In this document: piece after piece, positions 12,921-57,300 of the stretch
Numbering within the stretch: position 1 is the first letter of the stretch
Layout: each line of letters starts with the position of its first letter
From: Liolophura sinensis
Lineage: Eukaryota > Mollusca > Polyplacophora > Chitonida > Chitonidae
NCBI RefSeq assembly: GCF_032854445.1
Contig: NC_088304.1
Location: 26,301,704-26,365,703, forward strand
Length of the DNA: 64,000 nucleotides
Reading direction: 5' to 3'
Translations under genes and position numbers: made by a program
Notes under the pieces: model-generated
What the model saw: only the letters and a program-made list of their open reading frames with translations
Database searches by the model: none
Told to the model about the DNA's origin: nothing

Positions 12921-14431
12921 AACTGACGGCCAAAAGAAACTTTGCGACTCCGTGAATTAAAATTAACAAACCTTTTCAGCAAATTAATCCCAAAATATTG
13001 TAGGAAAACATTGTACGAAGCATATTCCCATGTGCCACAAGCCTCATATATGCCCACACGAATTTGTTTTGAGACAAAGAAGAAAGTTGAAAAATCACCT
13101 GGCCCATGGATGGCCGCAACTGCACATGTTATAAATGTATGAAAAGGTGCACACATTGCGCTGGACTTGCACACTGACAGAAAACCACCAAAGTAATATC
13201 TCGATGGACTCCAGAACAACGCGAGAGGGCCCTGAGTATGGTAGCCATGGCAGCCTCTCATGCCCACATTGCAAGGACCTTCGGCTGCTCTCGTGTAACT
13301 GTGTCAAACTTGATGCAACGTTACAGGCAGACAGGGCAGATATCTGACGCCCAGAGAAGAAGGGTACCTGAGCACCTTACACCTGAGGAAGCGCTTCCTG
13401 ACAGTGACGTCATCGTCAATCAATGCCATAGATCACCGGGTCAGTCGGCAGACCGTGTCCAGGAGACTCATGGCTCACGAAATTAGGGCCTATCGACCAT
13501 TCAGAGGGCAGTTGTTGACAGCCCAACATCGTCGCCAGAGGTTGCGATGGGCTCGAATTGTACGCCGTTGGCAGAGACGAGATTGACAGCGTGTTGTTTT
13601 CACGGATGAAAGCCGCTTCTGCCTGTTCCAAGCCGATGGCAGACAGCGAGTTTACCGTCGAAGAGACGAATGAACGTCTACATCATGCATACAGGAGGTG
13701 GTACCGTTTGGTGGCGGCAGCGTGATAGTGTGGGGTGGGATTTGTTGACAAGAACGGACACCACTGGTTATCATCTACGGGAACCTACCAGCTCAACGTT
13801 ACATGGAAGAAATTCTACGTCTCGTTGTCCTGTCATTTCTTCAACAGCAGCCGCCTGGTGTCATGTACCAGCATGACAACGCCAGACCCCATACAGCCCG
13901 AGTTGTGCAGAACTTCTTGCACGCCAACGACGTCAACGCCTTGCCGTGGCCTGCACGTTCCCCAGATATGTCCCCCATAGAACACCTTTGGGATACCATG
14001 GGTCGTCGAGTAAGACAAAGGCCACACCTTGCAGCCAACCGACAATAACCGGCGTTCGCTCTCCAAAATGAATGTCATCTCATCAGATGATTGACTTTTT
14101 CTATGCGTCGGCGAGTTTTTGCACGCATTGAAGCAAGGAGTGAGCACACGCAATATTGATGGATTTTGATATTGACTGATTTTAAAAAATAATCAACTTT
14201 TTGTATACCCAGCCCACTGTTAACCAGGATGGAATGGTTATTTTTCTACTCTTGCTCTGTTTGTTCACTTGTAAAATGATCTGAGAGCTGCTTTATCCGT
14301 TCTTACTCAAGACTTTCAATATCTAAAGTTATTGGTCTTTTCAAGATATTAAACTTCAGTCATCCTGTTTTTTTGCTTTGGCAAAATAAATTGATTTGAA
14401 CTCTTTGTAAAGTTTGTTTTGGCCGTGAGTT
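12921..14431 (+). mobile_element. Tc1-like DNA transposon, 1511 bp, inactive
   Basis: Terminal inverted repeats start AACTGACGGCCAAAAGAAAC at the left and AACTCACGGCCAAAACAAAC (reverse complement) at the right; 22 of 25 bases agree. TA flanks both ends (12919-12920, 14432-14433), as expected for Tc1/mariner insertion. Length fits a full-length element carrying one transposase gene, here decayed. Confidence 0.92.
13199..14159 (+). pseudogene. Tc1-like DD34E transposase pseudogene
   Basis: N-terminal helix-turn-helix region (WTPEQRERALSMVAMAASHA, ARTFGCSRVTV) in frame 2, a frameshift near 13375, then frame 3 to the end. Catalytic residues are all present: Asp in FTDES (13605), Asp in QHDNARPH (13875), Glu in SPIEHLW (13980), with 34 residues between the last two, which defines DD34E. 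Premature stops at 13584, 13671, 13746, 14046 and 14088, three of the five TGA; natural stop at 14157. The protein cannot be made; the copy has drifted for some time. Confidence 0.93.
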
Positions 14432-24173: not shown

Positions 24174-27100
24174 CTGTAAAGACAAACCAGACTATATTCT
24201 GCCATTTGTCCCTTAAACCAAATACATGTGATAAAGAATGACGTTATTTTCTTAAAGGAGAAGAAACTTTAAATATCAAACAAATACCATTAAAAACAGT
24301 ATGCATCTCCTATGGTGCATGCCATAAAAATTCTAATATGTATCTCAAGTTGATAAATCATAAATAAAGTCAGCGCCAAAATCCGCTGTGAGCGACTCCA
24401 TTTTGCCTAAGAACTAGTCCTGAAGTCTTCTCTGTTAGGAGGGGAACTTCCTTCTTCCCAGAAAGTAGCGAACAGCACAGTTCGTTTTCCGCTTGACGAT
24501 CGGGAAACCGGAATGTTGAACGTAGGTTCCGAGTTTACACGAACAAGCTGGCAGTTTAACGACTCTCATTGGCTGAGAGGCAACACATCCCCAGCATAAA
24601 TTACAGGGTGTTAAAGATGGAGGACGCGACGAATTCAGAGATTTATGCCAGCTTTGTCGTTTTCAGGCTTTACGTGTATGGCGAGGAAAAAATCTCCAAA
24701 TTATGCAGCAGGCACCACCAGATGGGAAAATATGCTCTTTTCAGCCTGTAGTGTCATTTTTTTTTAAATTTTCTTCTCCTTTAAGTAGAGTTCAAATAAC
24801 ATCTCAACTGTAATCTATCTAAACAAGGCTTTTAAATGCAAATAGCTAAAGGGAATGGACAAAAGTAGGCATTATCAATTGGAAAATAAAAATACCTCAC
24901 AGTAACCTGACCAAGATAAAAAATCTCTGATGGAATGTTAAAGATTATTCAATATTTCTTCCACAACAAAAGGAAGTAATGACTGGAATTTTTTCACCAA
25001 TTCACAGAAGGTCATGATTCACAGGAGGTCATGTTCTCAGGTAAGAGCTAATTATTGGTGGGAATTATGGAAGTACACTCGTACCCGGTGTCTACTTCAT
25101 AGAATGAAAACGTTTACATTCATCAATAAAGAATAAATTGTCTGCAAACAAATCTTATGATACATGTACATTCACACTGGAAAATGACTACTGTTTTGGA
25201 CAAACCAGGCTAGCTATTGAAGGCATGAAATTATCTAACTTCCACCTCTGACTCCAACATTTTCCTGCAGTACCATTTTGAATAATGTAAACTTCTACAA
25301 TCTTATTCCACAAAGTGATTTTGTGAACTCAAAATTCAACTAATAAAGATCAAACTGTGACACATGTATATCTCGTTATTACGCTTGTCGGGTGTTTTCA
25401 ATTTTGTACTTTGGGGTTCAAATAAAAGCACTTAAATCGAATTTTTAAACATTGACTGGAGTCAAAACTGGCAAAATCAGCCCAAACTCCACAGCTACAT
25501 TGTACTTACACAGCAGCAGGGTTGATGTATTTGCCAACACCAGATTTATACAATTTCGGCCCTTTCTCCTGTTCCTTTCTCACAGCTTTTCTCTTTTCTT
25601 TTTCCCTCTCCTCCTGATCTTTCTGCTCAGATTCATCTCTCTCCTTCTGAAGCTGAAAACAGATTGATTGATCGGTGTTTAATGTCTTACTTAGAACTTT
25701 GTCATTTATGTTAAAATCATCATCCCTATGTGGGAATGTGTGTCAGCAACCTGTGGATGGTCACTGGTTCCCCCAGGGTCTGCCCGGTTTCCTTCCACCA
25801 TAGTGCTGGCTGCCGTCGTATATGTGAACTATTCTCGAGTACGGCTTACAACACCAATCAGATAAATAAATAAATACAACCATCAGGCTTATGGGTGAAA
25901 GGAACCAGAGTAAATCACCAAGCCTGGGAAGCTGGGAACTGATCAGCGTTGCCAAATTTTAATCTTTTATCTTTTCATGGAAACTTTTTAATAGTCTCAA
26001 AAATCTTATTTGGACATGGACTGTTGAAGGCTTTTCACATTGTATGCATGTCTGACAAACATACGAGAGAAAATTTCTGCACAACCCTCCTTTCACATGT
26101 TAACAGTTTACCTTAAATGACCTCAAATTCCCCCCACAAATGTGCATTTTTAGACGCAAATAAATGTCACAAAATGTAATTTTTGGAGCTGAAACTTACA
26201 ATTTCCCAGTAAAATATCACAACATGTTCCAAGCAAACCTCAAAACGCCTTTCTAAAACCAAGAGAACTCTCAGAATCAGGAAAAATGGGCAAATTAGTT
26301 ATGGGCGTAATTTATGGTTATTTGGGGTAGTTATGCTAAGATACTCAATTCCATTCACATCTGACTAATTTTTTACCTTTAAAATAAAACAATTAAATTT
26401 CACTACCCAGAAAACCATGAGCCATAATTACCTGTTCATCAGCCTCTTCATACGGATTCACAAAAATGGTTGTCTGGATAATTTTTATTTCCTCCTACAA
26501 CATAAATGCATTTTTAGATACAAATGAATACAGAAATACGCATACAGATTCAATGCTGTGAAAATAACTGTTTCCGTTCTTAAAAATACACTGTGATATG
26601 TACATGCATTTGATGTAAAAATCACTTTTAGTTCTCCATACTGATTTGTGCTCTAACATTTACAAAAAACCTGAGAGAGCTTATCAAAATTTAAAGAAGC
26701 TTCATTTTATTTATTTATTTATTTGATTGGTGTTTTACGCCATACACAAGAATATTTCACTTATACGACGGCTGCCAGCATTGTGGTGGGAGGAAATCGG
26801 GCAGAGCCCGGGGGAAACCCACGACCATCCGTAACAGTACATGTACATGTAGTCTTACTTACTTTGGGTTTGTCATCTTTCCCTGTCTCTACTTGCTCCA
26901 TTTTATCTAATGTGTCCAGCCCTCCTACTACCCTGATGAAAGAATAATGCCAAATAATTCTATTACACTTTTACTCTCACATTTTATTTAATTATCTTTT
27001 ATTTGATCGATGTTTTACGCCGTACTCAAGAATATTTCACTTATACAACGGCGGCCAGCATTATGGTGGGAGAAAACCAAGCAGAGCCCAGGGGAAACCC

Positions 27101-30100
27101 ACGACCATGCGCAGCTCCCACGTTTTAATACTGGACAAAATCAACCATGTCTGCATCTAAAAAAAATAAATCTTTGACCATATTTAATGTTCAGAAACAT
27201 CCGACAGTGTATACTTCCTCTTACTACATACCTACATATGTATAATACTTGTATAATACCATTCCATAACGTACAAAACACTTCACAATAACCTAATATT
27301 ATTTCATACACTTAAACAAATAACTAGGGTATTAATACCCTTAATGCCGTTAACTGGGATCTATAACCATATTTAATAATAAAAAATAGGAGATATGGCA
27401 CAGTTATACCATAAATATTGCTGGTGAGAGGTTGAAATAATTAACCATGAGACATGAAGTGTCAAGTGGCTTATCATTTCCATCTATCACACCAGCTACA
27501 CTTACTTTCCAAACACTGCATGTTTCCCATCTAAATGTGTGCATGAACGGAAAGTTATGAAGCTGAAAAGTAAATAAAATTTAAGATAAACATTTATGCA
27601 GGGACAGTTTGTATTAATACTCCTACATTCATGCAGTTGTAGAGTCAAAGCTCTCTGTATTGCTGCAGACCGTACAAATGCAACATGACAGTAGGAATTT
27701 ATTTGATGTCTGAAGCTTTCATAAAAACATGCCCTGATTTGTTGGCATCCGATAACTTAGAGCTCTGCCTTGTTGGCATCTGATAACTTAGAGCTCTGCC
27801 TTGTTGGCATCTGATAACTTACGGCTCTGACTTGTTGGTGTTGGTGACTTACAGTTCTGACTTGTTGGTGTTGGTGACTTACAGTTCTGACTTGTTGGTG
27901 TTGGTGACATACAGCTCTGACTTGTTGGTGTCTGATAGCTTACAGCTCTGACTTTTTGGTGTCTGATAACTTACAGCTCTGACTTTTTGGTGTCTGATAA
28001 CTTACAGCTCTGACTTGTTGGTGTTGGTGACTTACAGTTCTGACTTGTTGGTGTTGGTGACTTACAGTTCTGACTTGTTGGTGTTGGTGACATACAGCTC
28101 TGACTTGTTGGTGTCTGATAGCTTACAGCTCTGACTTTTTGGTGTCTGATAACTTACAGCTCTGACTTTTTGGTGTCTGATAACTTACAGCTCTGACTTG
28201 TTGGTGTCTGATAATTTACAGCTCTGACTTGGTGGTGTCTGATAACTTACAGCTCTGACTTGTTGGTGTCTGATAACTTACAGCTCTGATCTGTTGGTGT
28301 TTAATGACTCCTACATGGTAGCTGTCACTGATACCTTACAACTGTATCTTGTGAGTGTTTACTGACTCCCAACTGTGGATTGTTTGTCTTTGAGAACTCA
28401 CAACTGTGGCTTGTTGGTGTTAAATTAATTTATTCATTGGATTGGTGTTTTACCCCATGCTCAAGAATGTTTCGCTCATATGACCATCGCAAGTGTTATG
28501 GGGGTGGAAACAATGAAGAGCCCGGGGTTAAACCCACGACCACAGGTTGCTTGTAGGCCTTCCCATGTACAGGCAGAGAGAAAGCCAACATGAGCTGGAC
28601 TTGAGCTCACAGTGACCACATTAGTAGATGCACAAAGCTCCACGATCATTGAACCATGCTGGCATGCTAAACCCCTGGTGTCAAATGATTCCCAGCCGTG
28701 ATTTATTGGTGTTTAATGACTCACAAATTTGCCTGATGACTAACAAGTGTGACTTCTTGGTGCTTTATGACTCACAAGTGTGACTTTTTGGTGTTGTCTG
28801 AAAACTTACAACTGTCACATGTTGGTGTTTAATGACTAACAGGTTTGCCTGATGACTTACAACTTTGTCTAATGACTTACTACTGTCACTTCTTGGTGCT
28901 TTATGACTCACAGGTGAGACTTTTTGGTGTTTAATGACTCGCATTGTCTGATGACTTACAACTATCACTTCTTGGTGCTTTATGACTCACAAGTGAGACT
29001 TTTTGGTGTTTAATGACTCGCGTTGTCTGATGACTTACAACTGTCACTTGTTGGTGTTTAATGACTCACAAGTTTGTCTGATGACTTACAACTATAACTT
29101 GTTGGTGTTTAATGACTCATAACTTTGTCTAATGACTTCCAACTATGACTTGCTGGTATTTAATGACTCACAACATTGTCCGATGAATTATAACTGTCAC
29201 TTGTTGGTGTTTAATGACTCACAGGTTTGTCTGATGACATACAACTGTCACTTGTTGGTGTTTAATGACTCACAACGTTGTCTAATGACCTACTACTGTC
29301 ACTAGTTGGTGTTTAATGACTCACAGGTCTGTCTGGTGACTTACAACTGTCACTTGTTGTTGTTTAATGACTCACAGGTTTGTCTGGTGACTTACAACTG
29401 TCACTTGTTGTTGTCTAGTGACTCACAACTTTGTCTGATGACTTACAATTGTGACTTGTTGGTGTTTAATGACTCACAACTTTTTCTGATGACTTACAAC
29501 TGTGACTTGTTGGTGTTGGGTCCGCTGTTAGCCATACTGAGTATTCCTCTCCCAGAGTGAGTCAGGTTTGGTTTTGTCTCATCCTTGAACGTTCCACCCC
29601 AGGCCGATTCTCCCCCTGGGAACAGACAGCAGGGAAACAATCAGAAACGCACATGAATTAAAGAGTCAATGCCACAGTCTATAGAGATGGACTAATTGGC
29701 TGTACTTGTACTGTATTTCACCAGATGTTTAGCAGTTTCCAAGCGACACAATGCCACAGTATATAGAGATGGACTAATTGGCTGTACTTGTACTGTATTT
29801 CACCAGATGTTTAGCAGTTTCCAAGCGACACATTCTCCTAGATTCTGAATGATTCATCCATCTTACACAGATCAACATGTCATATTGAAGTGTGTTTTGC
29901 ATGAAGCATGATATATGATTTATTTATTTGAATGGTGTTTCATGCAATACTCAGGAATATTTCACTTCATATATGACGACAGCCATATTGTGGAAACAGG
30001 CATGTATCCCCATGGAGTCCATGGTGTTTAATGGATACCCCTGTCCCGTGTAATAATGAGGGACATACTTCAAGTGCGTATAGTGTAAACATAGGGGAAG

Positions 30101-33100
30101 AACTGCCTGGAAGAACTGCCTGTTACAAGAAACTGATTTAACTGAAATGAAAAAATAATCCTCATACAGTGTGTCAGGAAGCTCTGGCTTTTCTGTTGAG
30201 CACAATCACTCATAACCCCTCACACATAGGGAAATAAACGCAATGAACACACACTATGAAATCATGTGTTTTTACAGGTTGTCAACAGAGGCAAATTGAC
30301 ACCTTCCTCCATTTAACATGTCTAAAAGGAATATGACGTATTTTATCTGCGACAAATTCTGCTCAGCTACATTGTATGTTTTGAAACACTCATAATACTG
30401 ACAGCCTAGGTATTGAAACACTGGTAATACTGACAGCCCAGTTACTGAAACACTCGTACTACTGACAGCCCGGTTACTGAAACACTGGTAATACTGACAG
30501 CCTAGTTACTGAAACACTCGTAATACTGACAGCCCAGTTACTGAAAAACTCGTAATACTGATAACCTGGTTACTGAAACACTCGTAAGAACTGACACCCT
30601 GGTTACTGTAACACTTGTAATACTGACAGCCCAGTTACTGAAACACTCTTAATACTGACACCCCAGTTACTGAAACACTCATAATATTGACAGCCCAGGT
30701 ACCGAAACACTCGTAAGAACTGACAGCCTGGTTACTGAAACACTTGTAATACTGACAGCCTGGTTACTGAAACACCCGTAATACTGACACCCCAGTTAAT
30801 GAAACACTTGTAATACTGACAGCCTGGTTACTGAAACACTCATAATACTGAGAGCCTGGTTACTGAAACACTCGTAATACTGAGAGCCTGGTTACTGAAA
30901 CACTTGCATTACTGACAGCCTAGTTACTGAAAAACTTGTAATACTGACAGCCCAGTTACAGAAACACCCGTAATACTGACGCCCCATTTACTGAAACACT
31001 TGTAATACTGACAGCCCAGTTAATGAAACACTTGTAATACTGACAGCCCAGTAACTGAAACACTTGTAATACTGACAGCCTAGTTACTGAAACACTCGCA
31101 ATACTGACAGCCCAGTTACTGAAACATTTGTAATACTGACAGCCCAGTTAATGAAACACTCATAATACTGACAGCCTGGTTACTGAAACACTCTTAATAC
31201 TGACAGCCCAGTTACTGAACACTTGTAATACTGACAGCCTGGTTACTGAAACACTCGTAATACTGACATCCCGGCTACTGAAACACTTGTAATACTGACA
31301 GCCTGGTTACTGAAACACTCATAATACTGACATCCCGGCTACTGAAACACTTGTAATACTGACAGCCAGGTTGCAGAAACACTTGTAATACTGACAGCCC
31401 AGTTACTGAAACACTCGTACTACTGACAGCCTGGTTACTGAAACACTCGTACTACTGACAGCCTGGTTACTGAAACACTCGTAAGAACTGACAGCCTGGT
31501 TACTGAAACACTCGTAATACTGACAGCCCGGTTATTGAAACACTTGTAATACTCACAGCCTGGTTACTGAAACACTCGTAACACTGACAGCCTGGTTACT
31601 GACACACTCGTAAAGCTGATAGCCTGTTTACTAAAACACTCATAATACTGACAGCCCGGTTACTGAAACACTCGTAATACTGACAGCCCTGTTATGTCAA
31701 AAATACAAACTATATAAAAGAATGGCATAACATGCAAAACATATGTTAATAAATGCCCTAATTCTTCAACCTTTCTTACCCTGTCGGCCGCCAATATTTT
31801 GAAACATTCTGAAAGAACTATAGCGTACGTGTAGAGAAATAATTTGGACAGTTTTATGAAGCTTGCATCTTTAGTGACACAAAGAAATCATTTTAGCATC
31901 ACTTTTATAAATGACTGTATGCACAGTATGCATAAATTCCATTATAATAAGTGCTAAAAGAGAATGAAACGGTTGAAGCTTTCCAGTAATGAGAACTGAA
32001 AGTTTTCTGCATACCTTTGCCTGTACCAGTAGGATCTCCACCTTGTATCTGAAACACAGACAGAATCCCATCAGCTGAGAAATAAAGTATGGCCATGTTT
32101 ACGTCTTGGTTCTTGAATCTAATATAAGTTGATTGTAACTACCACACTTACAATATGAGTTTGGAGCAGTTACTATCAATTTTATATCAGCTTATGACAA
32201 TTTTTTAAAGAAAACAATGGTGTTGACTTTAAATTTTATCTGCACATGTTACTGTTCAAAATAGGCTATTGACTTTCTAAAATTTCATAGAGCGTCCGCT
32301 TCGGGACCAGTAGATCCAGGATCAATCCTTGATCGAGTCACACCTAAGACTTTAATAGAGGAAGTTGTAACTTCCTCGCTTGGCGTTCAGCATGAAGGGG
32401 ATAGTGCAACGACTGGTTGACCCGTATCAGTATAATGGCTCGGGCGGGGCGGCTTACTTGCCTTCGGTAAGTCGTCTCAGTGAAGCAGCACTAAATAAAA
32501 GAGCGGTGGAAATCCGTCCTGCAACAAGGAGGCACATTATACGTACATGCACCCTAATGATTCCTTCGTCGTCATATGACTGAAAAATTGTTGAGTACGA
32601 CGTTAAACCCCAAGCACTCACTCACTCACTCTAAAATTTCAGGATGGATTGTAACTTTTTCAAACTTTAAACCATTTTAAAATTACAGTTCAAGTAAGCA
32701 TGATATTTACTGAAATTCAGCAATTTAAGCTATTCTTGGAAAATACAAAAAATTTAATTTGCTATTAGCCAATATGAACCAAAATTTCTGCTATAGCCTC
32801 TTTAAACTGAAATCCACCATAAGCATAACAATGTGACCAATGTTAAAAAAACATTTCTGCATCTGAACCGAAGATGATTAAAATATGGAACGTCACCATT
32901 TGGCAGAAGCAGAAAGAGACAGGTGACACAATACAATATTATTAATCTCTTTTTTTTTATTCAATGAGAAACAAACAAGAACAGAATAAGAATGAAATAC
33001 ACACTGTATCTTCTTACTTTCCCATAAGTGTTTTGTCTGCTAGTTTTCATTTTAAACTTGTGCGTACCAACAGCTTTTAAGGTCAAGTCAAGGCTAACTG

Positions 33101-36100
33101 TAACAAGTGAAACGCACAGGCATATACACACCCTAATTCCTCAACCTTTTCATATGTGAAAGAGCAACTTTCAGTTTATGCGCATTTTTAATTTGATTTT
33201 GGAGACAAAACTACATTATTTGTGTTGCCCAATTTCCAGCCTTCACAAAAAGTTTATCAGTCTACACAGAATAATACCAGAATAATGCCTACACAATATG
33301 CTTAAATAAACACCTCGAAAACACGCGAAAAGGTTGAAGAATTAAATTATACCCCACACCAGCCATCCAGCCGCTTTTACATGTACACCTAACTTAATAC
33401 TTTAACATCTACCTTTACATATTGATAATTCCGTCACTTACCATGAAGTTTCTAATAGACCTGTGGAATATGGTGTTGTTGTAGTAACCACTGGCACAAT
33501 GCTTCAAGAAGTTCTCACATGTCTTAGGCACCTGTGCGGAATAACAAGTGCTGAAGAGATTTACTGTAAGTTCATGCAAGTACATGTATCTCCACATCCA
33601 GACAATAAGGATTAACTTATTTCTTTGATTTCTGTTTTACAACGTAACCACTTTTATGATGGCAACCAGCTTTATGGTCAGAGGAAACTAGTGCGAGGGG
33701 AAATCCACCAGCCCTGGTGGCTGGCAAATCTTCCCAGTTACGTACAGACAGAAAACCAGCATGAACTGGACTTGAACTCACAGCGACTGCATTGGTGACA
33801 GGCTCCCGAGTTATTGTACTGCACTGATTCCCAGCACAATATTAGTCACCTTTGAGATGTCATAATTCATACTGTTTCACCTCCAAAACGGTCACATTCC
33901 ACGAATCCTTTATCAAACAGTGTCATGCTCTTGAATACCATGTAAACCATCAATAAGTTAATTACACAGACAAGCAAACTTACCATGTCTGAGAAGAGTT
34001 CCAGGTTAAGCTGACCATGACTGGTGACAATCCTCACGTACGCCTTCTTCTTCACCCTCTCATACCTCAGCAGGTCTTCATCAATAGCAGCTATAACACA
34101 GAAAAATGAAATGTTGTCCTGAAGTTCCAAATCTCAAGCCAGTCAAGAAAGCTTCTTTATTTTTTTTAATTTCTCAATGTGTAATGTGTGAAGAAAACCT
34201 GAATACCTGGAGTAAACCACCAGCCTAACGCCACATTTGTCTGTATCCTGTCACTGAGTAAACCATGTAACTAACAGGGCCTGACTGTAAACCACCAGCC
34301 TGACACCATATTTGTCTGTATCCTGTCACTGAGTAAACCATGTAACTAACAGGGTCTGACTGTAAACCACCAGCCTGACACCATATTTGTCTGTATCCTG
34401 TCACTGAGTAAACCATGTAACTAACAGGGCCTGACTGTAAACCACTAGCCTGACACCACATTTATCTGTATCCTGTCACTGAGTAAACCATGTAACTAAC
34501 AGGGCCTGACTGTAAACCACCAGCCTGACACCATATTTGTCTGTATCCTGTCACTGAGTAAACCATGTAACTAACAGGGCCTGACTGTAAACCACCAGCC
34601 TGACACCATATTTGTCTGTATCCTGTCACTGAGTAAACCATGTAACTAACAGGGCCTGACTGTAAACCACTAGCCTGACACCACATTTATCTGTATCCTG
34701 TCACTGAGTAAACCATGTAACTAACAGGGCCTGACTGACTGGCTCAACTTACTGTTGATGTGAAGGGTGCTGTCACTGAGTAACCATGTAACTAACAGAG
34801 TCTGACTGACTGACTGACTGACTGGCTCACCTGCCTCGTGTTCAGTCTGGGGTATGGCTGCTGTTGATGTGAAGGCTGCTGTTGATGTGAAGGATGCTGC
34901 CGCTGAGTAGCCGTGTAACTTAAATACAGCCTGACTGACTCACTCACCTGCCTCGTGTTCAATCTGGGGTGTGGCTGCTGTAGATGTGAAGGATGGTGCC
35001 ACTGAGTAGCCATATAACTTAAATACAGCCTGACTGACTCACTCACCTGCCTTGTGTTCCGTCTGGGGTGTGGCTGCTGTAGATGTGAAGGATGGTGCCA
35101 CTGAGTAGCCATATAACTTAAATACAGCCTGACTGACTCACTCACCTGCCTCGTGTTCCGTCTGGGGTGTGGCTGCTGTAGATGTGAAGGATGCTGCCAC
35201 TGAGTAGCCGTATAACTTAAATACACCCTGACTGACTCACTCACCTGCCTCGTGTTCCGCCTGGGGTGTGGCTGCTGTAGATGTGAAGGATGGTGCCACT
35301 GAGTAGCCATATAACTTAAATACAGCCTGACTGACTCACTCACCTGCCTTGTGTTCCGTCTGGGGTGTGGCTGCTGTAGATGTGAAGGATGGTGCCACTG
35401 AGTAGCCATATAACTTAAATACAGCCTGACTGACTCACTCACCTGCCTCGTGTTCCGTCTGGGGTGTGGCTGCTGTAGATGTGAAGGATGCTGCCACTTA
35501 GTAGCCATATAACTTAAATACAGCCTGACTGACTCACTCACCTGCCTCGTGTTCCTTCTGGGGTGTGACTGCTGTTGATGTGAAGGATGCTGCCACTGAG
35601 AAGCCGTATAACTTAAATACAGCCTGACTGACTCACTTACCTGCCTCGTGTTCCGTCTGGGGTGTGGCTGCTGTAGATGTGAAGGATGCTGCCACTGCAC
35701 CTGTGGAGTAATGAGCCTACAACAAAAGATGGCTCGACTGAGAGACTGGCTGAATCATGGATTTATTGTAAGACGCAGGTTTACGCCTGCAACTGCACCT
35801 ATATGTACAAACATTACTGACTGATCCTAACTTTAGGATGGCTCTACACTTATACAAATAGCGCTGACTGATCCTAATTTAGGATGGCACTACTATTATA
35901 CGGACATCACTGACTCATCTTAACTTAGGATGGCACTACACTTATACAAATAGCGCTGAATGATCCTAATTTAGGATGGCGCTACTATTCACTGACTGAT
36001 CCTAACTTAGGATGGCACTACTCTTATACACACAGCACTGATTGATCCTAATTTAGGATGGTACTATACATATACATACAGCACTGATTGATCCTAATTT

Positions 36101-39100
36101 AGGATGGTACTATACATATACATACAGCACTGACTGATCCTAATTCAGGATGGCACTATTCTTATACAAACATCAATGACTGATCCTAATTTAGGATGGT
36201 ACTACTCTTATACAAATAGCACTAACTGATCCTAACTTAGGACGGCACTACTCTTATACATACAGCACTGACTGATCCTAGCTTAGGATAGTGCTACACA
36301 TATACATACAGCACTGAATTGTCCTAATTTTTAGGTTGGCACTACCCTTGTACATACAGCACTGATTGATCCTAATTTAGGATGGTACTATACATATACA
36401 TACAGCACTGACTGATCCTAATTTAGGATGGTGCTACACATAAACATACAGCACTGACTAGTCCTAATTTAGGTTGGCACTACCCTTGTACATACAGCAT
36501 TGATTGGTCCTAATTTAGGATGGTACTATACATATACACACAGCACTGACTGATCCTAATTTAGGATGATACTGTACAACACTCAATGATCCTATATTAG
36601 GATTTTACAACACAGATCTACAAATGCACATCACTGATTGGTATTATACATAATGTATACATACAGCACTGATTTTGTCTGCTTTCCTCCCCTTGTCATC
36701 GGTCTTCATCAAATACTGTGAACAACAAAGAACAAACTGACTGAAACATTTATAAAATACAACATAAATGTGTTATTCATTGTGTTAAACATTTTGGCTT
36801 AAGGGAGTAATCAAGGTCTAAAATTTGTCTTTATATAGTAAGAAAAACACCAGGGTCAAAATTATCACCTTCCATTTTTATGATAAATGTACTTTTGTTT
36901 TCGATATCTAATCTACTTTCATCTGGTAATTCATGTTTAATACCAAATTCAACAATGTTTTGCTTATAAGACATGTCAGGTTTATGTGTGGAAAAAACAT
37001 GGCATTCTCTCTAAACCATTGCACCTGCATGTCAGTACCGAAAACATCTCCTGACTTCATGAGCAGGGTGTGAACATCTTGCCACTTGATTGAAGGATTA
37101 GTTTTATCATAGGCAGTCTTGACCATTTGCGTGTATCTACAAACATTTAAATATTGTTTTACGGTAAAGAAATGTACCTACTTCTGGGGTCTTGTAATCT
37201 CTGTCTAGCTCATTGAGAATGTCTCTTGTCTCAGAGTTGATGGTTTTTAAATTATATTTTGGATTCTTCTTGGCATCTTCATCTGAAATGCACAATTAGC
37301 CAAAAATGAAATGGAATCAGAAACATTGTGGTTATATTTCAGGTTATAAATACATTTCTGATTTTGTAACAGACTTATACTTCATGTTATAATTATATTC
37401 AGATCTTGTAACAGACTTATATTTCAGGTTATAAATACATTCAGATCTTTGTAACAGACTTATGTTTCAGGTTATAAATACATTCAGATCTTTGTAACAG
37501 ACTTATGTTTCAGGTTATAAATACATTCAGATCTTGTAACAGACTTACATGTATATTTCATAAATACAATCTTTGTAACATTCTTTGTCCTCTGTTCAGA
37601 GAAGAATGCTTTGCTAAGATATGAGGACAAGCATTGAATTTCATCTAAAGATTGGTATTTAAAAATACATTTTATACAGAACACATAAAGGCCTAAAGAC
37701 GACATGTTTGATCCCATCGGTACTTCACAGAAGAAATTCACACAAAACTCTTTGGCACCATAATAAAGTTGGATGAATCAATCGAAATCAAGCACAACGT
37801 ATTAACTCAAAAATGTATTAACTCAAAAACGCTAAACTTTAGATGAAATACGCTAGGTCATATGCTATACACTATATTCACATAACAGAATTCCTCATCA
37901 ATATGACCTTCACATGTACAAAAAGCTTACACAACCTATTCTCCGATGAACGAAATAAATATAGTAAATACAGTACTACAATTGTCCAACCAATATATAT
38001 TTAACTGACTTTTGATCACGACACTTCATAACCTGTCCACCGACTCTACAGAAAAACATATAATTCTTTCCGCTCAACATTTGTAAACCATGCACACAAA
38101 AAAATCAACCAATTTTTTTTTTCATGACTTTTTTTTTCCATCATGAATTTTTTTAAATTGCATTTCTCTTTCCACATGACTAGTGCTCAGATATATTTCA
38201 CTTGTGCAAGACCAAATTTTACTCTGTCAAACTGTGTGGTTTGAACATGGCATCACCATCACAGAAGGTGAAATATTAATAAAGAATTAGATAAATATTT
38301 ACATTCATATCAACATGGACCAATGTTGAACAACTTTCCTCCAACATGGCTGCCAAAATATATATATACGTAGGTCTAGCAAAACTTATGCTGGTAGATC
38401 ATACTCATGGAAAGCACAGTATTTGATTGGTGGTATACGCCGTACTCAATGATATTTCACTTATACGACAGTGGCCAGCATTATGGTGGGAGGAAAGTGG
38501 GCAGAGCCCGGCGGAAACCCACGACCATACCCTGGTTGTTGCCAGACCTTCCCCTAGTATGGCCAGAGAGGAAGCCAGCGGGAGCTGGGCTTAAACTCAC
38601 ATGAACTGGTGGGAGACTCCTGGGTCTTAGCGCCGTACTGGGGGAAGACTTGTTAACATTTGACTGACCTATCTCATTTATAATGCAGCCTTTAATAAAG
38701 CTTTCACACAAAATGGATGCTTTTCAATTTCATGAATTCTGAAATCAGTCTACAGAATGAAGATTCACACTCTTATAACAATATATGATATTAAGTACAT
38801 TGTATCCACAATGAATCACGTCAAGTCAACATACCATCTTCTACTTTGAGGTTGTTTTTCACATGATAAAAACTTGAAATGTTGAACTTATCCAGATTGG
38901 GTAGGATCCTGTAAAGAGAAATAGAAATTAAGACAGTAAAATTAAGACAAAAATATACTCTGTTTCAAAAAAAAGTGATGGTTGTCTGTCAGTACTTCAG
39001 TGATATAACTCACCTTTAGTGTGATCCAACCCTTCTTGGTAAGTGTCTCATCTGTCAGCACCTCAGTCAAACTCACCTTTATTGTGATTCAACCCTTCTT

Positions 39101-42100
39101 GGTAAGTGTCCTCATCTGTCAGTACCTCAGTGACGCAACTCACCTGTATTGTAATCCAACCCTTCCTGGTAAGTGTGTCATCTGTCAGTACCTCAGTGAT
39201 ACAACTTACCTGTATTGTCACCCAACCCTCCTGATAAGTGTCTCATCTGTTAGTACCTCAGTGATAAAACTCACCTTTATTGTGATCCAACCCTTCCTGG
39301 TAAGTGTCTCATCTGTCAGTACCTCAGTGATACAACTCACCTGTATTGTGATCTAACCCTTCCTGGTAAGTGTCTCATCTGTCCGTACCTCAGTGATACA
39401 ACTCACCTGTATTGTGATCCAACCCTTCCTGGTAAGTGGCTCATCTGTCAGTACCTCAGTGATACAGCTCACCTGTATTGTGATCCAACCCTTCCTGGTA
39501 AGTGTCTCATCTGTCAGTACCTCAGTGATACAGCTCACCTGTATTGTGATCCAACCCTTCCTGGTAAGTGTCTCATCTGTCACTACCTCAGTGATACACC
39601 TCACCTTTATTGTGATCCAACCCTTCTTGGTAAGTGGCTCATCTGTCAATACTTCAGTGATACAACTCACCTTTAGTGTGATCCAACCCTTCCTGGTAAG
39701 TGGCTCATCTGTCAGCACCTCAGTCAACTCACCTGTATTGTGATCAAATCCTTCCTGGTAAGTGGCTCATCTGTCAGTACCTCAGTGATACAACTCACCT
39801 GTATTGTGATTCAACCCTTCCTGGTAAGTGTGTCATCTGTCAGTACCTCAGTGATACAATTCACCTGTATTGTGATCTATCCCTTCCTGATAAGTGTCTC
39901 ATCTGTCCATACCTCAGTGATACAACTCACCTGTATTGTAATCCAACCCTTCTTGGTAAGTGTCTCATCTGTCAATACTTCAGTGATACAACTCACCTGT
40001 ATTGTGATCAAATCCTTCTTGGTAAGTGTGTCATCTGTCAGTACCTCAGTGATAAAACTCACCCGTATTGTGATCCAACCCTTCCTGTTAAGTGTCTCAT
40101 CTGTCCGTACCTCAGTGATAAAACTCACCTGTATTGTAATCCAACCCTTCCTGGTAAGTGGTTCGTCTGTCGGCACCTCAGTGATACAACTCACCTTTAT
40201 TGTGATCTATCCCTTCCTGGTAAGTGTGTCATCTGTCAGTACCTCAGTGCGCAACTCACCTGTATTGTAATCCAACCCTTCCTGGTAAGTGTGTCATCTG
40301 TCAGTACCTCAGTGATACAACTCACCCGTATTGTGATCCAACCCTTCCTGGTAAGTGTGTAATCTGTCAATACTTCAGTGATACAACTCACCTGTATTGT
40401 CACCCAACCCTTCCTGGTAAGTGGCTCATCTGTCAGCACCTCAGTGATACAGCTCACCTGTATTGTCACCCAACCCTTCCTGGTAAGTGTGTCATCTATC
40501 AGTACCTCAGTGATACAGCTCACCTGTATTGTCACCCAACCCTTCCTGGTAAGTGTGTCATCTGTCAAGCACCTCAGTGATACAGCTCACCTGTATTGTG
40601 ATCTAACCCTTCCTGGTAAGTGGCTCATCTGTCAGTACCTCAGTGATACAACTCACCTGTATTGTCACCCAACCCTTCCTGGTAAGTGGCTCATCTGTCA
40701 GCACCTCAGTGATACAACTCACCTGTATTGTCACCCAACCCTTCCTGGTAAGTGGCTCATCTGTCAGTACCTCAGTGATACAACTTACCTGTATTGTCAC
40801 CCAACCCTTCCTGTAAGTGTGTCATCTATCAGTACCTCAGTGATACAACTTACCTGTATTGTCACCCAACCCTTCCTGGTAAGTGTGTCATCTGTCAGTA
40901 CCTCAGTGATACAACTCACCTGTATTGTGATCCAACCCTTCCTGGTAAGTGTCTCATCTGTCAGTACCTCAGTGATACAACTCACCTGTATTGTGATCCA
41001 ACCCTTCCTGGTAAGTGGCTTATCTGTCCGTACCTCAGTGATACAACTCACCTGTATTGTAATCCAACCCTTCCTGGTAAGTGTGTCATCTGTCAGTACC
41101 TCAGTGATACAACTCACCTGTATTGTGATCCAACCCTTCCTGGTAAGTGTCTCATCTGTCAGTACCTCAGTGATGCAAGTCACTTGTATTGTGATCCAAC
41201 CCTTCCTGGTAAGTGGCTCATCTGTCAGCACCTCAGTGATACAACTTACCTGTATTGTCATCTAACCCTTCCTGGCAAGTGGCTCATCTGTCAGCTCCTC
41301 AGTCAACTCACTTGTATTGTCACTCAACCCTTCCTGATAAGTGTCTCATCTGTCAGCACCTCAGTGATACAACTTACCTGTATTGTCATCTAACCCTTCC
41401 TGGTACGTGTCTCATCTGTCAGCACCTCAATCAACTCACCTGTATTGTCACCCAACCCTTCCTGGTAAGTGTCTCATCTGTCAGCACCTCAATCAACTCA
41501 CCTGTATTGTGATTAAATCCTTCCTGGTAAAAGGCTCGTCTGTCAGCAAATCTCTCATGAATTTAGCCTTCAAGTTCAACCTCTCCACAGCCTGTAACAA
41601 AAAAATATGCAGTAATCTTGTCAGATTTCTCATTTGAATGTTATTTAACACCAACACCTGATTCAAGAGAATGAGATAAAAATATAAACAGAACTATCAA
41701 CAGGTAAAGAAAGCCCACCATTGACAACTAAATGTATATCCAAAAATGCTAAAAAGTTTATTTTGCAAATATTTTCCTCTGTTAGTTTTGGATTGAAGTC
41801 TGAGATGGGTTAAAAAAAGTAGTTTTTGCAACTTTTCAGTGTTTTTTCTATTCATACTTTTCGGTTATGAGAAAAATGAACAACATATGGGGTTCTATTC
41901 TGTGCCTAGTGCGCATTTAACAGAGGTGTTAGAATTCGGGGTGTAAGGCATTAACTTCTGGTTTCTTAATATCTGGAAATAATTTTGTGAAAATTAATCT
42001 TGACAAGAAAGGTGCCCAAATTAGAAATCTCTTATTTGGCCCTGCATGTCCTTTTATGTAATAATCTGTGATCAAATGAGGTTGATTTCCCCAGAGAAGG

Positions 42101-45100
42101 AGAGCCTTATTGCAACCCACTACTCTTTTCAAAATGTACATAGTTTTTCACACTGATTATTCCAGCTAAAACAAAATATACTTACATCATATGAAAACAC
42201 ATTTCCAGTGACCTTTACAGCTACTATGTGGGAGTTCTCATTTAGGACTTTGTATGTTACTGGACAATGGTACTTTCCTGAAATTAGGAGGAAAGCTTGC
42301 ATGTGTGTACTGATATACACTGCACATGTATAAAGTCACAGGGCCAGGTTTTGTACCTGATCATTTGGTAATTTGGTCCACCACTTTGTATATGATATCT
42401 ATGTTTTATATGAAGATACAAGTTCCACATGTTTAATAAATACATTTGAGCTAGAATTTTGTCTCTTCTCCTAAAAGATGTGTTCAACCTGAGTTTTAAT
42501 CATACAGTATTTATATTTTTAATATGTTCATAAATATAATCATAACTCAGATTAAATGCATGTCTTTGGATATAAACAACACATTCACATTCAAATAAAT
42601 TTATTAGACATGCATCATTTTTTAGAACATTATTATGCAAACATGACAAATGTACGTGGTGGTCCCCAACACCCACCATACAAAAATATTTTCAAGTACC
42701 CTTTAATCTTGAAAGAAAAAAACTTTTCCCTCTGTTTCATTTGGTATTTGTCTCATTTTTGTGTTTTCTTTTCCTTTAATACAAAACTTACCATAACACA
42801 AGAGCAATGAGACTTACAGTCAGACTTTAATTTTTCTATGTTACCATATAACTGGTGTTTAATGTGGAACCACACTAAGGATTTTTACCTTTAATACAGT
42901 GGTCAGCTAAATGCAAGGAAGAAACAAGGAAGAGTCTGGAGAAAATCTCTCCTGAATGTCAGGCACTGATGAATGAACTGTTTTCATAGAAATGACTTCT
43001 ATTTGTGACAAGAAAAAATGTTCTTTTTGCTCTGAAGACATGTAAGTTTTATTGTGAAAATGCTTCCAATCAACACGAAACCCTAATTTTTGTCTAAAAC
43101 TAGGGATCAAATATATTTAAAACATGAACGAAAAAGTCTGCTTTTTATACATATACATAAAATTATCTCAGATTGCTATCAAAACTTACCCTCTGCATTT
43201 TTATGAAAATGCAACTTGATTAAATCCTTTGCTGTCATTTTCTGGAAGTGTAATCAATGGAAGATTGATAAAATTAGGAAACGCAGGGTTTCATGTATCC
43301 ATAATGTACAAAAGGAAAGAAGGGATGCAGCCACAATCAACTGGGTTATCTCCCTTTTTTCCTGACACGTTTCCACACCGTTGAAAATGTGCCACAAGGC
43401 ACTATAGAGCACAGAGATATGATAAGCTATCACTCTTTAGGGAATGACCATTCACCTTAAGATTGTCTTGAAATAGCTAAAACTCATGACCGAAAAGATG
43501 TTGAGGTTTGTGCGTAAGGTAGTATGATACACTGCATCTCACTGGAAAAATGTAAGTTTCAGTAACAAAAGTAATATTTTAATGCATTTATTTGCTCCTA
43601 AAACTGCACGTTTTCAGATGAAACTTTAGTCCCATTACCGTAATTACGTTAAGTAGGCATTAATATGTACAAGACATATACACACTTCAACAAGACATAT
43701 ACACACTTCAACACACTTCAACAAGACATATACACACTTCAACAAGACATATACACACTTCAACAAGACATATACACACTTCAACACACTTCAACATCAC
43801 ATAATCAGTGATTTTGCCAGTGCAATTACAAACAACTGTTGCCAGCTCCTGATACAGGACTTCTCAAGATCAGGATATTTACTGGGTATGCCCTAGGGTT
43901 AAGATCTCAATCCCACGCATACCCTGGTGAATAACTAGCAGCACTCAGCAGCAGATTACCATTTTATAAATTAGCGTGTATACCCTAAATGACTACAGAT
44001 TTTGTCCATGATTAACTTGCCCATTTCTCCTGATTCTGGATGTTTTACTGATTTTAGAAGGTGTTTTGAGGCTTGCTAGGAACACAGGATGATTTTCTGC
44101 TGGAAAATTGTAAGCTTCAGCACCAAAAAAAAATATTTTGGACATTTATTTTCCTCTAAAAATGCAATTTTGTGGGGAAATTTTAGGTCATATAGGCTTT
44201 ATTTTGTACCTGCACCGAAAAAAACCCCAAAAGCTTCTGATTAACGTTACAATGATTACAATCTCAAATCATTATTTTCTTAATCGCAAACAACTACTTT
44301 TACACTGATTTAAAATGATACCAGGTGCTGTCCCATAAGGCTGTTGTACACTGTTAAAGTTAATTGGTTTAAAAAGAGAAGTATTCTCATCTTATGTTAT
44401 CATTGTTGGTTGAGGGGGAATACACAGTATTTACATGGTGAGTGGTTCAAAACAAACTAAGAGTATAACCTAGCTAATACACACTATAGATATCGCATGT
44501 ATACTCAAAAATATGTGTTTAAATATTCTTTTATGAATTTCTTTGCTAGAGCAATGTAAAGTCTATACTTTCTAGTAAAAGGCTGTTTTTATTCAGTATC
44601 TAGTAAGTGACCACATTTATGCATGGACGTGCATGTGTCTGACAACTGCTACATCATTTGTGAAATTAGACAACAAAATCAACATCCACTGAAGACAACT
44701 AGCCCCCATTTCGCTGAAGGGCATATTAAAGTCGCAACTCGTGTCCTAAGTTAAAGCTTACAACATACAACCATTTCCCAAAGCAATACTACCCAGGCCT
44801 TATTGTGTACTGAGGGGCAAAACTTACATCTTCAGACTAAATCATGATTTGTTGGTAAAATGCAGCACATACATTTAGTGGAATGTACTACACTCCCCAG
44901 TCCAAGCAGACAACACAGAAAATAACCCAAATATGGTTGCTGTCAATCAGATATGCTTCATTAACGATTTATTATCACTGAAGTGATTCGTAAAAAAAGA
45001 AATACCTTTAATATATAAATGTGTGTGTGATGTAAACAAATTATAAATTTGAAACATTAAAGTTACAAACAGTAATGTAGATCGCTCAACTGATATACTA

Positions 45101-45745
45101 CTAAGTACAAAATGTTAGGCCATGTGCTTTTCTTTTGACAGTCTATGAATATTTTGTGTAACTTGAGCCAGCAATCCTCTATAACCTTACCTCTCCTGTC
45201 GTTGGATTGATTCCGTACTTCTTTAGGAACGGTACAATATTCCTGCAAATTTGAAACTCAAAATTAGCCTTTATTTGCCCAGTACTCAATTACAATTTAC
45301 CCAAATAATTAAAATACATGAATACTCACCTACCACTACAAACTTCATTTATGATACAAGGGCTAAATTTCTTACAAAACTGACTTCAGTTCTATACGTA
45401 CATGTATATTTCTTCTCTGATTGTCACATAAATGTAATATTTATTTATTTATATGGTTGGTGATATACACTGTACTTAAGAATATTTCACTTATACCACA
45501 GCAGGCAGATATCGAGGGAACATAAATGTACCAAAACATCCCTTTGTTATTATTGTGACACCACACTTTTGCTCACTACCGGGACACAGTACAGCTACAT
45601 GTATGCTAGGCCCACCATGGTGGGATGGTGATTGTTTGTCCACTCACTATAGGCGTAAGATCTGATCAAGATGTGAGTATCATGGCGTAACTATGGTACT
45701 ATCGTGGGTGTATGATTGCGGTATGGTTTTATCACCTTAAAGCGA

Positions 45746-45797
<52 letters not shown>

Positions 45798-54345: not shown

Positions 54346-57300
54346 CTGAACGAGTAAGGTATTTAGAATTAACAGCAAAACGTGAAAATGACCACCAACG
54401 GACAGTTCCGTTCCACCACGGTTACAACGTGTAAATGAAATTAATTGCTTGACTGCCGTCTAGACAGATGGTGCTTTGGGTGGGAAAATGTTGTTCATAC
54501 TTTTGTCAGTCTATCTTTCGTTTCAAAAGCCATTTGGATTACTTCCCCTACTTGGGTATTAATAAATACTGTTGTTTTTATAAGCACAAATTCTAAGAGT
54601 AAAGAGTGGACTGCCAGAACAGAGAAGATGCTGAGAGTATAAGTTACTTCAGTTTAGGTATTTATTTATTTCTTTATTTAACACTGATCTCAATAATTTC
54701 TTTATCTACATGACTCGGTATGGTTCGTGAATGAAGGAAACCGAAGTTCCTGGGGCATCGCCCTTCGCAGATTTGACAAACCTCTGACATAAAACCACAG
54801 CCCCCAAACGAACCCGCGACGACATTTGACAAATGTCTGGATGTCGCAGTGAGATTAAGTCGTCTGAGCCAGCGACAGCTTCATGCAGATATGATAGCCA
54901 ACACATCTATGGAGCTGTAATTGTCAGATCTGAAATTAACCACTGAGAAGATTCCTACCACATCAAAGGATATTTTTAGGGTGTGAAAAGATGTTGGCTA
55001 AAGTTAAATTCTTATAAGAGAATGTTACTTAGATTCCCAGACTTACTAATTCTCTTTTCCGACTTGCGCTTTTCTAGACGAGAACGTCGAGATAACTTTG
55101 ACTCTGTTAGAGAAAGATCCAGAGAGACTATATAGCCACATGACATTGAACCATTTCATTAATTAATTTAGAACAGAGAATGTCAGAAGCCAGAAGTGTA
55201 CTTTCTGCCACCCACAGCTCCCGCCTTATGAAAGCAGTTAAGAAAAGGAACTGGATGGTTAATATATGTTTAGGTTTAAGGTTTAAAAGAGCAAAACGAC
55301 ACAAAACATTTGACACACAACTTACTGCTTTCCACCGGTGGTGTCGGGTCTGGGGCAACAGCATCTGTTGGACAAGAAATGAAGGTACATGTATGTGGCT
55401 ATGTGGATAAGCGAAAGTCATATAATGAAACTAATTAATTCCTGTCATATAATTAATTCTAATTTAATTTCGCTTTCACCCTCTTTAGAGTGAGTCAGTG
55501 CTTAGGGTTAAAGGTCGTACAATTTTTCGGAGGAGAAGGAGTCCCTACAGTGCTTGTACGTGTAACGTGCCTCTTTGTCGCAGGCCGGATTTCCACCTCT
55601 CTTTTACCCGGTGCTGCTTCATTGAAACGACTAATCAAGTAAGACGCCCACCCGAGCCATTATGCTGATTCGGGTCAACCAGCCGTTGCACTATCCCCTT
55701 AATGGTAAACACCAAAAGAAGAAGATACAACTTCCTCTTTTAAGGTCCTGGGTGTGACCTGACCCAGGTTTGACCTTCGATCTACCGCCCCCGAAGGGAT
55801 CAGCGCCTTTAGACGGTGGGTGTCTCACTACTAAACGGACGATTCTTAACGTTATATGTATATATATATATATATATGATGCTGCCTCATTACAACATAG
55901 ATGAAAACAAGGTTTTCTAAAAGCTTCTCTCCAGAGAAACGTTTAGGATGAGAGGAAAACCAGATTTCCTGAAAGCTTCTCTCAAAAAAACTTTTATAAT
56001 GAGAGAAAAACCAAATTTTCTGAAGCTTCCCTCACAAAAACTTTTATAATGAAAGGAAAAACAGATTTTCTGAAAGCTTCTCTCACAAAAAACTTTTACA
56101 ATGAGAGGAAAACCAAATTTTCTGAAAGCTTCTCTCCAAAGAAACATTTGCAGTGAGGGGAAAACCAGATTTTCTGAAACCTTCTCTCCAAAGAACCTTA
56201 CAATGAGATGGGAATCTAATTTTCTGAAAGCTTCTGGGCAAGGAAATTTTTACAGTGAGATGGAAACAAGATTTTCTGAAAGCTTCTGTCCGAGGAAACT
56301 TTTACAATGAAATGAAAACGACATTTTCTGAAAGCTTTTCCTCAAACCTTTACAACGAGAGGAAAACCAAATTTTCTGAAAGCTTCTCTCCAAAGAAACT
56401 CTTACAAAGAGAGGAAATCCAGATTTTTTGAACGCTTTTCTCCAAAGAAATTTTTTAAAATTAGAGGAAATTCAAACTTTCTACAAGCTTCTCTCCAAAG
56501 AAACTTACAGTGAGATGAAAACCAGATTTCCTAAAATCTTCTCCACAAAGAGGCCTTTTGCAATATGAGGAAAACCAGATTTTCTGAAAGCTTCTACTTA
56601 AGAAACTTTTACAATGTGATAGAAAGTAGATTTTCTGAAGGCTTCTCTCCAAAGAAGCTTTTATAAAACCAGATTTTCTGAAAGCTCCTTTGTAAGGGAA
56701 CTTTCGCATTGAAAGGAAAACAAGATTTTGGGAAAGCTTCCCTCCATAGAAACCTTTACAATAAGGGGGAAAAGCAGATTTTCCGAAGGTTTCTCTCCAA
56801 AGAAACTATTACAGTGAGAGGAAAGCCAAATTTTCTGAAAGCTTCTGTCCAAAGAAATTTTCACAACGAGAGGAAAACCAGGTTTTCTGAAAGCTTTTCT
56901 GCACGGCAACTTTTAAAGTGAAAGGAAAACAAGATTTTCTGAAAGCTTCTCTCCAAAGAAACTTTTACAACGAGAGGAAAACCAGGTTTTCTGAAAGCTT
57001 CTCTGCAAAGAAACGTTTACAATGAGAGAAAAACCAGATTTTCGAAAAGATTCCCTCCAAAGAAACTTTTACAATGAGAGAAAAACCAGATTTTCGAAAA
57101 GATTCCCTCCAAAGAAACTTTTACAATGAGAGAAAAACCAGATTTTCGAAAAGATTCCCTCCAAAGAAACTTTTACAATGAGAGAAAAACCAGATTTTCG
57201 AAAAGATTCCCTCCAAAGAAACTTTTACAATGAGGTGAAAACAAGACTTTCAGAAACTTCTCCCCAAAGAAACTTTTTAAAATAGCCGTTACTGCGCGAA

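Follow-up and report, generated by a model that had tools for sequence, protein, structure and literature searches.

Why should four splice donors of a single gene each be copied into a minisatellite of its own? The question is raised by the PPIL2 gene of the chiton Liolophura sinensis, which lies in a stretch of 64,000 nucleotides (NCBI RefSeq assembly GCF_032854445.1, contig NC_088304.1, positions 26,301,704 to 26,365,703 of the forward strand), here called the window and used for all coordinates below. The original prediction, made from the letters alone, held that at exons 7, 10, 11 and 15 the 3′ end of the exon, its GT donor and the first bases of the intron have been amplified repeatedly into unrelated arrays that fill the downstream introns. 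We found that tandem duplication across donors has indeed occurred, independently, in four introns of this gene, although it is not confined to donors, as the acceptor of exon 3 is duplicated too. The arrays are probably minisatellites of the type described in amphioxus as mirages, with a bias towards donors that may stem from short host introns and need not imply targeting of splice sites. The gene and the donor-associated arrays are as follows.

25510..48711, minus strand: PPIL2 gene, coding exons 1-19, an exon model with GT-AG borders
41502..41591, minus strand: exon 7, which contributes its last ~47 nt to the 66-bp unit
38985..41546, minus strand: 66-bp minisatellite occupying most of intron 7, with 39 units that carry a donor, the true one among them (Tandem Repeats Finder [TRF] score 3895)
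38835..38908, minus strand: exon 8, after intron 7, with a one-base frame break relative to later exons
36665..36715, minus strand: exon 10, whose last 8-10 nt are repeated with the donor
35816..36568, minus strand: 46-bp minisatellite, intron 10 (TRF score 870)
35641..35716, minus strand: exon 11, which contributes its last 53 nt to the 99-bp unit
34874..35697, minus strand: 99-bp minisatellite, intron 11, with 8 decoy donors (TRF score 1494)
34212..34737, minus strand: 75-bp minisatellite, intron 11, lacking an exonic part (TRF)
29498..29615, minus strand: exon 15, which contributes its last 20 nt to the 31/51-bp unit
27734..29517, minus strand: 51-bp and 31-bp minisatellites, intron 15 (TRF; 34 junction copies at E 1e-3)

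The gene model was built from tblastn hits and GT-AG borders, which hold throughout its 19 coding exons on the minus strand. Human PPIL2 matches the assembled protein over query residues 1-489 (E 2.4e-204, with an X placed at the frame break in exon 8), and this similarity identifies the gene as PPIL2 up to the C-terminal last exon, which the model misses and which was not found when sought by loose patterns. Exons 1-7 share one open frame, whereas frame 1 is the sole open frame of exons 8-19; with exon 7 ending in phase 0, the one-base break falls within exon 8. Most simply, the break is a base error or a null allele. The intron 7 decoys as restorers of the frame were ruled out, as read-through from exon 7 stops 6 nt into the intron.

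In the junction survey, each of the 37 junctions of the model (19 donors and 18 acceptors) was taken with 30 nt on either side and searched for along the coding strand of the whole window with a threshold of E 1e-3. Four of the 19 donors and one of the 18 acceptors had extra copies, all of them spanning the junction: 38 for the donor of exon 7, 6 for that of exon 10, 8 for exon 11, 34 for exon 15 and a single copy for the acceptor of exon 3. The other 32 of the 37 junctions had no extra copies on that strand at this threshold. Looser scans brought the decoy GT donors in introns 7, 10, 11 and 15 to 38, 12, 8 and 43, or ~100 altogether. TRF limits enclose three of the four donors (7, 11 and 15) and the exon 3 acceptor. 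The exon numbers, unit sizes and exonic contents that had been predicted were borne out by TRF and by alignment of the units to the borders, from which we read exonic parts of ~47, 8-10, 53 and 20 nt per unit for exons 7, 10, 11 and 15, respectively. The lack of sequence relationship between the arrays was likewise confirmed: with one unit taken per array, blastn at E 0.05 linked none of the four loci to another. We therefore dropped the idea that the arrays share an origin, since the only match at this threshold is that between the two intron 15 units; a laxer comparison additionally links the 75-bp and 99-bp units, both of which lie in intron 11.

In the intron 7 array, a pattern search gave 40 matches, and exclusion of one at 39230, which is out of register and lacks GT, left 39 accepted units. 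With the true donor included, GT is present in 39 of 39 and GTRAGT in 31 of 39. Among the 38 units examined for identity, 37 are distinct, and the 28 of exactly 66 nt are 91-92% identical to one another at all lags tested. A 62-nt form occurs in units 0 (the true donor), 1, 3 and 27, so that three of four occurrences of this spacing sit at the exon end. As a sign of concerted evolution that leaves out the edge unit, this spacing is offset by the flat identity with lag and by edge units that are not the most exon-like. Donor columns have a mean major-allele frequency of 0.933 compared with 0.918 for exonic columns (P 0.84), and in this array, the sole one so tested, we saw neither purging nor special conservation of decoys.

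In intron 11, GT is retained in 9 of 9 units including the true donor, and the last decoy donor, at 34830, lies just beyond the TRF limits of the 99-bp array. The end of exon 11 agrees with the consensus of the decoys in all 53 of its 53 positions, a single column of that consensus being tied 4:4; this suggests that the array is young or is exchanging sequence with the exon. The 75-bp unit further along the intron resembles the intronic portion of the 99-bp unit over 45 nt at 75.6%, a similarity absent from the comparison at E 0.05, and the sequence separating the two arrays over 40 nt at 92.5%. At exon 15, the 31-bp unit consists of 20 exonic and 11 intronic bases, while the 51-bp unit is a 31-bp unit plus a 20-nt partial copy, most of these having their own GT; GT is found in 43 of 50, with the true donor left out of the count. 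Intron 15 departs from the description of array-filled introns in that it is not wholly array: the interval from 28301 to 28864 holds degenerate units and a dispersed repeat, the latter at ~28420-28690 by eye.

Exon 10 is the weakest case. Its TRF array begins 96 nt inside the intron and leaves the donor uncovered, and it is tied to that donor solely through the junction search (6 copies, E 1e-3). A looser scan of intron 10 gave 17 matches, 13 of them with GT, including the true donor. The 46-bp units also carry a frequent palindrome, TCCTAAATTAGGA, present in 9 exact copies and 13 with no more than one mismatch over the ~16 units at 35816-36568; allowing up to one mismatch, TCCTAAATTAGGA was not found in the first 96 bases of intron 10.

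The duplicated acceptor and one of the arrays lying away from junctions are listed here.

47114..47318, minus strand: 102-bp two-copy repeat over the exon 3 acceptor (TRF, junction survey and sequence)
30382-31688: 32-bp minisatellite, ~41 copies, intron 14

In the upstream copy of the exon 3 acceptor, CAG has become CAA and the AG is lost; this decoy, if used, would also yield a stop. The contrast between a lost acceptor AG and retained donor GTs is based on a single case. Four array families within PPIL2 touch no junction: intron 14 has one of 32 bp and one of 82 bp (x2), intron 8 has one of 43 bp and intron 4 one of 21 bp. When five non-junction arrays, including one from outside the gene, were sampled, none matched the exons with 30 nt on either side better than E 0.14.

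With arrays this abundant, their coincidence with junctions has to be set against chance. We placed nine array families at random positions in the gene with its arrays collapsed (15,936 bp), leaving out in-gene TRF rows below a score of 100 and counting the 31/51-bp and 75/99-bp arrays once each. Random placement is expected to cover 0.59 donors and 0.60 acceptors. The probability of covering at least four donors was 0.0016, that of at least five junctions 0.0062, and that of at least four donors with only the seven families of at least three copies 0.00026; a binomial count gave 0.0028. The four-donor values count exon 10 by homology and not by TRF limits, and if its array is omitted the applicable figure is that for at least three donors, 0.017. 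All of these values hold for this window, which was chosen afterwards for its looks, and are not transferable to the genome. An additional control with intron tiles, in which 35 of 610 had a near copy, was unusable because it excluded tiles that reach into an array and scored dispersed repeats as near copies. Coincidence with tolerance, in which random duplications in a minisatellite-rich gene happened to fall on junctions and neither donors nor intron size mattered, draws some support from the nine families in a 23-kb gene, four of them off junctions, and from the 7914 of 23,202 bp that the listed arrays occupy. Given the low probabilities for five junctions and for four donors, we regard it as quite unlikely.

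The same excess of four donors over one acceptor is what a mutational process directed at 5′ splice sites would produce, whether through donor-proximal R-loops, paused polymerase or slippage at the donor sequence, with four independent hits in PPIL2. Several observations tell against such targeting. It would not be strictly donor-specific, as an acceptor is duplicated too, and the statistics that favor it weaken to 0.017 without exon 10 in a window selected as striking. Coding-strand GC skew of the donor arrays is inconsistent (+0.27, +0.15, -0.06 and -0.03/-0.16), and the strongest skew, +0.78, belongs to the 21-bp array of intron 4, which is not at a donor; the R-loop mechanism proposed at the outset thus finds no consistent signal. 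DNA folding shows no clear excess either. Hairpins were rejected as a cause after six sequences had been folded, five of them from donor arrays, and none did clearly better than its shuffles; z scores of the five ranged from -1.56 to +1.04, the best being that of the 46-bp unit, which 19 of 200 shuffles equaled. Taken together, targeting seems unlikely.

The explanation that we consider probable is that these are mirage-type minisatellites and that the predominance of donors reflects the short introns in which they arose. In each of the four introns, one tandem duplication would have captured the end of the exon together with its donor and the start of the intron, and the unit would then have been multiplied by slippage or unequal exchange. 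The true exon with its 5′-most donor and the acceptor side would have stayed intact, and splicing from the first donor would remove the whole array. Reading through exons 7, 10, 11 and 15, an in-frame stop begins 6, 18, 5 and 1 nt into the intron, respectively; since read-through meets a stop within 18 nt in every case, normal protein needs the first donor, and the mRNA made with it would be unchanged. In a short intron there would have been little room outside the constrained acceptor side, so that surviving duplications would have tended to reach the donor. With whole repeat stretches removed, the residual lengths of introns 7, 10, 11 and 15 are 76, 195, 121 and 171 nt, and none of the other 14 of the 18 introns is as short (rank probability 1 in 3060 by this whole-stretch count); the array-free lengths of those 14 are 368 to 1829 nt. 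The distances from array to acceptor are 76, 99, 121 and 171 nt. With the last 50 nt held fixed and ancestral intron lengths that are themselves estimates, the chance of a unit overlapping the donor is 1.0, 0.26, 0.80 and 0.23 in introns 7, 10, 11 and 15. The short-intron step, which we draw from intron sizes, is the weakest of the explanation, but with it a preference for donors need not mean targeting.

A number of points weigh against this account. Strict TRF limits (score at least 100) give residuals of 76, 195, 257 and 735 nt, and although introns 7, 10 and 11 remain the three shortest, intron 15 moves to tenth of 18; the whole-stretch count for intron 15 takes in the degenerate units and dispersed repeat between its arrays. 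Where an array borders directly on the donor, the intron keeps a tail but no head, and its residual is biased downward. The four geometric chances multiply to ~0.05, or ~0.03 with 30 nt fixed, and geometry alone is therefore not generous. Units at the edge of the intron 7 array are not the most exon-like, units 1-4 matching 25-27 of 34 exonic bases and unit 27 matching 31 of 34. Choice of the first donor is deduced from the in-frame stops, and U1 pairing does not prefer the true donor of intron 7: this donor pairs at -12.2 kcal/mol and 22 of the 38 decoys come within 0.1 kcal/mol of that value, the rest comprising 13 at -10.1 to -11.5 kcal/mol and 3 weaker ones. Finally, of the human repeat changes classed as intron-type, 66% have a transcript that also retains the repeat according to the passages cited (PMC2812944). 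Because human transcripts often retain such repeats, tolerance of arrays in splicing may, by analogy, be incomplete.

What, then, of the decoys themselves? In intron 11, 7 of 8 decoys pair with U1 at -13.0 kcal/mol and one at -11.1, compared with -12.9 for the true donor, while in introns 10 and 15 the true donors are weak (-3.5 and -5.4) and the decoys likewise. It had been suggested that decoy donors are tolerated or used. They do seem tolerated, in that the donor columns of intron 7 have neither decayed nor become extra conserved, but productive use as spare donors is unlikely because it would insert a stop codon; decoy-derived isoforms of all four introns would be truncated. The decoys could instead serve by holding the U1 small nuclear ribonucleoprotein along the intron against premature polyadenylation, or by giving regulated poison isoforms. 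The presence of ~100 donor-like sites, the strong U1 pairing of most decoys in introns 7 and 11 and the early stops in decoy isoforms of all four introns would suit such roles. We nevertheless hold a function very improbable, given that the intron 7 donor columns show no extra conservation and that the donors of intron 10 are weak, some of the matches there lacking GT altogether.

Could the arrays be products of assembly? The frame break of one base in exon 8 points to base errors in the assembly, and a 301-bp block is repeated at 98.3% within the 75-bp array. Against this stand the diversity of the intron 7 units, with their even identity at every lag, and the fact that unrelated arrays copy four different junctions. 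Copy numbers may be wrong in the assembly, but we give an artefact as the source of the arrays hardly any credence.

By anatomy, the PPIL2 arrays belong with the mirages of amphioxus, for which the passages cited describe tandem repeats spanning exon-intron borders in Adh3, BflGb6, BflGb9, PGBD5 and TnC, with units of 10 to ~160 bp, splice signals within many of the repeats, and both donor and acceptor sides known (PMC3087553, PMC3902484). For the globin mirages, RT-PCR (reverse transcription PCR) suggests regular splicing, borders of both kinds are affected, and Adh3 is cited as a further case (PMC3087553); in lancelet PGBD5, repeats of 60 and 108 bp lie at splice sites, with Adh and TnC cited (PMC3902484). 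PPIL2 differs in that it is a molluscan gene with four donors and one acceptor affected together, and in scale: the BflGb6 mirage has 6 and 3 units in two haplotypes (PMC3087553), whereas PPIL2 has up to 39 units, known here from one sequence alone. A link between PPIL2 and the spliceosome, which had been singled out as a notable coincidence, is not needed, as alcohol dehydrogenase, globins and PGBD5 are among the genes with mirages in amphioxus.

Other systems resemble the arrays in part. In the Rogers model, introns are gained by tandem duplication of an AGGT-containing segment, with a potato RdRp gene as a case, and this shares with PPIL2 a tandem duplication that carries splice sites (PMC4974935, in the passages cited); the PPIL2 duplications, judged from a single gene without relatives for comparison, appear instead to lengthen existing introns. 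Human repeats at boundaries in segmental duplications are similar in that minisatellite expansion there can alter intron structure, but as described in the cited parts they average 30-bp units x 4, and most intron-type changes also show a transcript that keeps the repeat (PMC2812944). A molluscan intronic minisatellite that varies between individuals has been described in intron 3 of an abalone TSSK1-like gene, for which the passages cited give no position relative to a splice junction (PMC6905558). A limited literature search, covering titles and the openings of abstracts, found no molluscan mirage.

Three further features lie outside PPIL2, where a Pfam scan covered ten open frames. A 52-bp minisatellite of ~27 copies occupies 55899-57277; a minus-strand open frame at 5346-5927 matches LHFPL (PF10242, E 3.4e-13); and transposase fragments that match helix-turn-helix and DDE_3 domains lie on the plus strand at 13178-14048. 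The dispersed repeats of the window have a molluscan look.

The PPIL2 arrays are a sizeable instance of a repeat type that has seldom been described and was previously reported in lancelets, and they extend mirage arrays to a mollusc, where they are larger and affect four introns of a single gene. They also provide natural constructs for an old question, that of how the spliceosome chooses one donor among dozens of near-equals. Finally, they suggest a testable route of intron lengthening. That donor-spanning tandem amplification is a general route from short introns to long ones is a tentative idea, and we incline against it; if true, in introns of ~100-200 nt it would be almost the sole kind of duplication that spares splicing, and the long introns of such genomes would hold fossil donors of the upstream exon.

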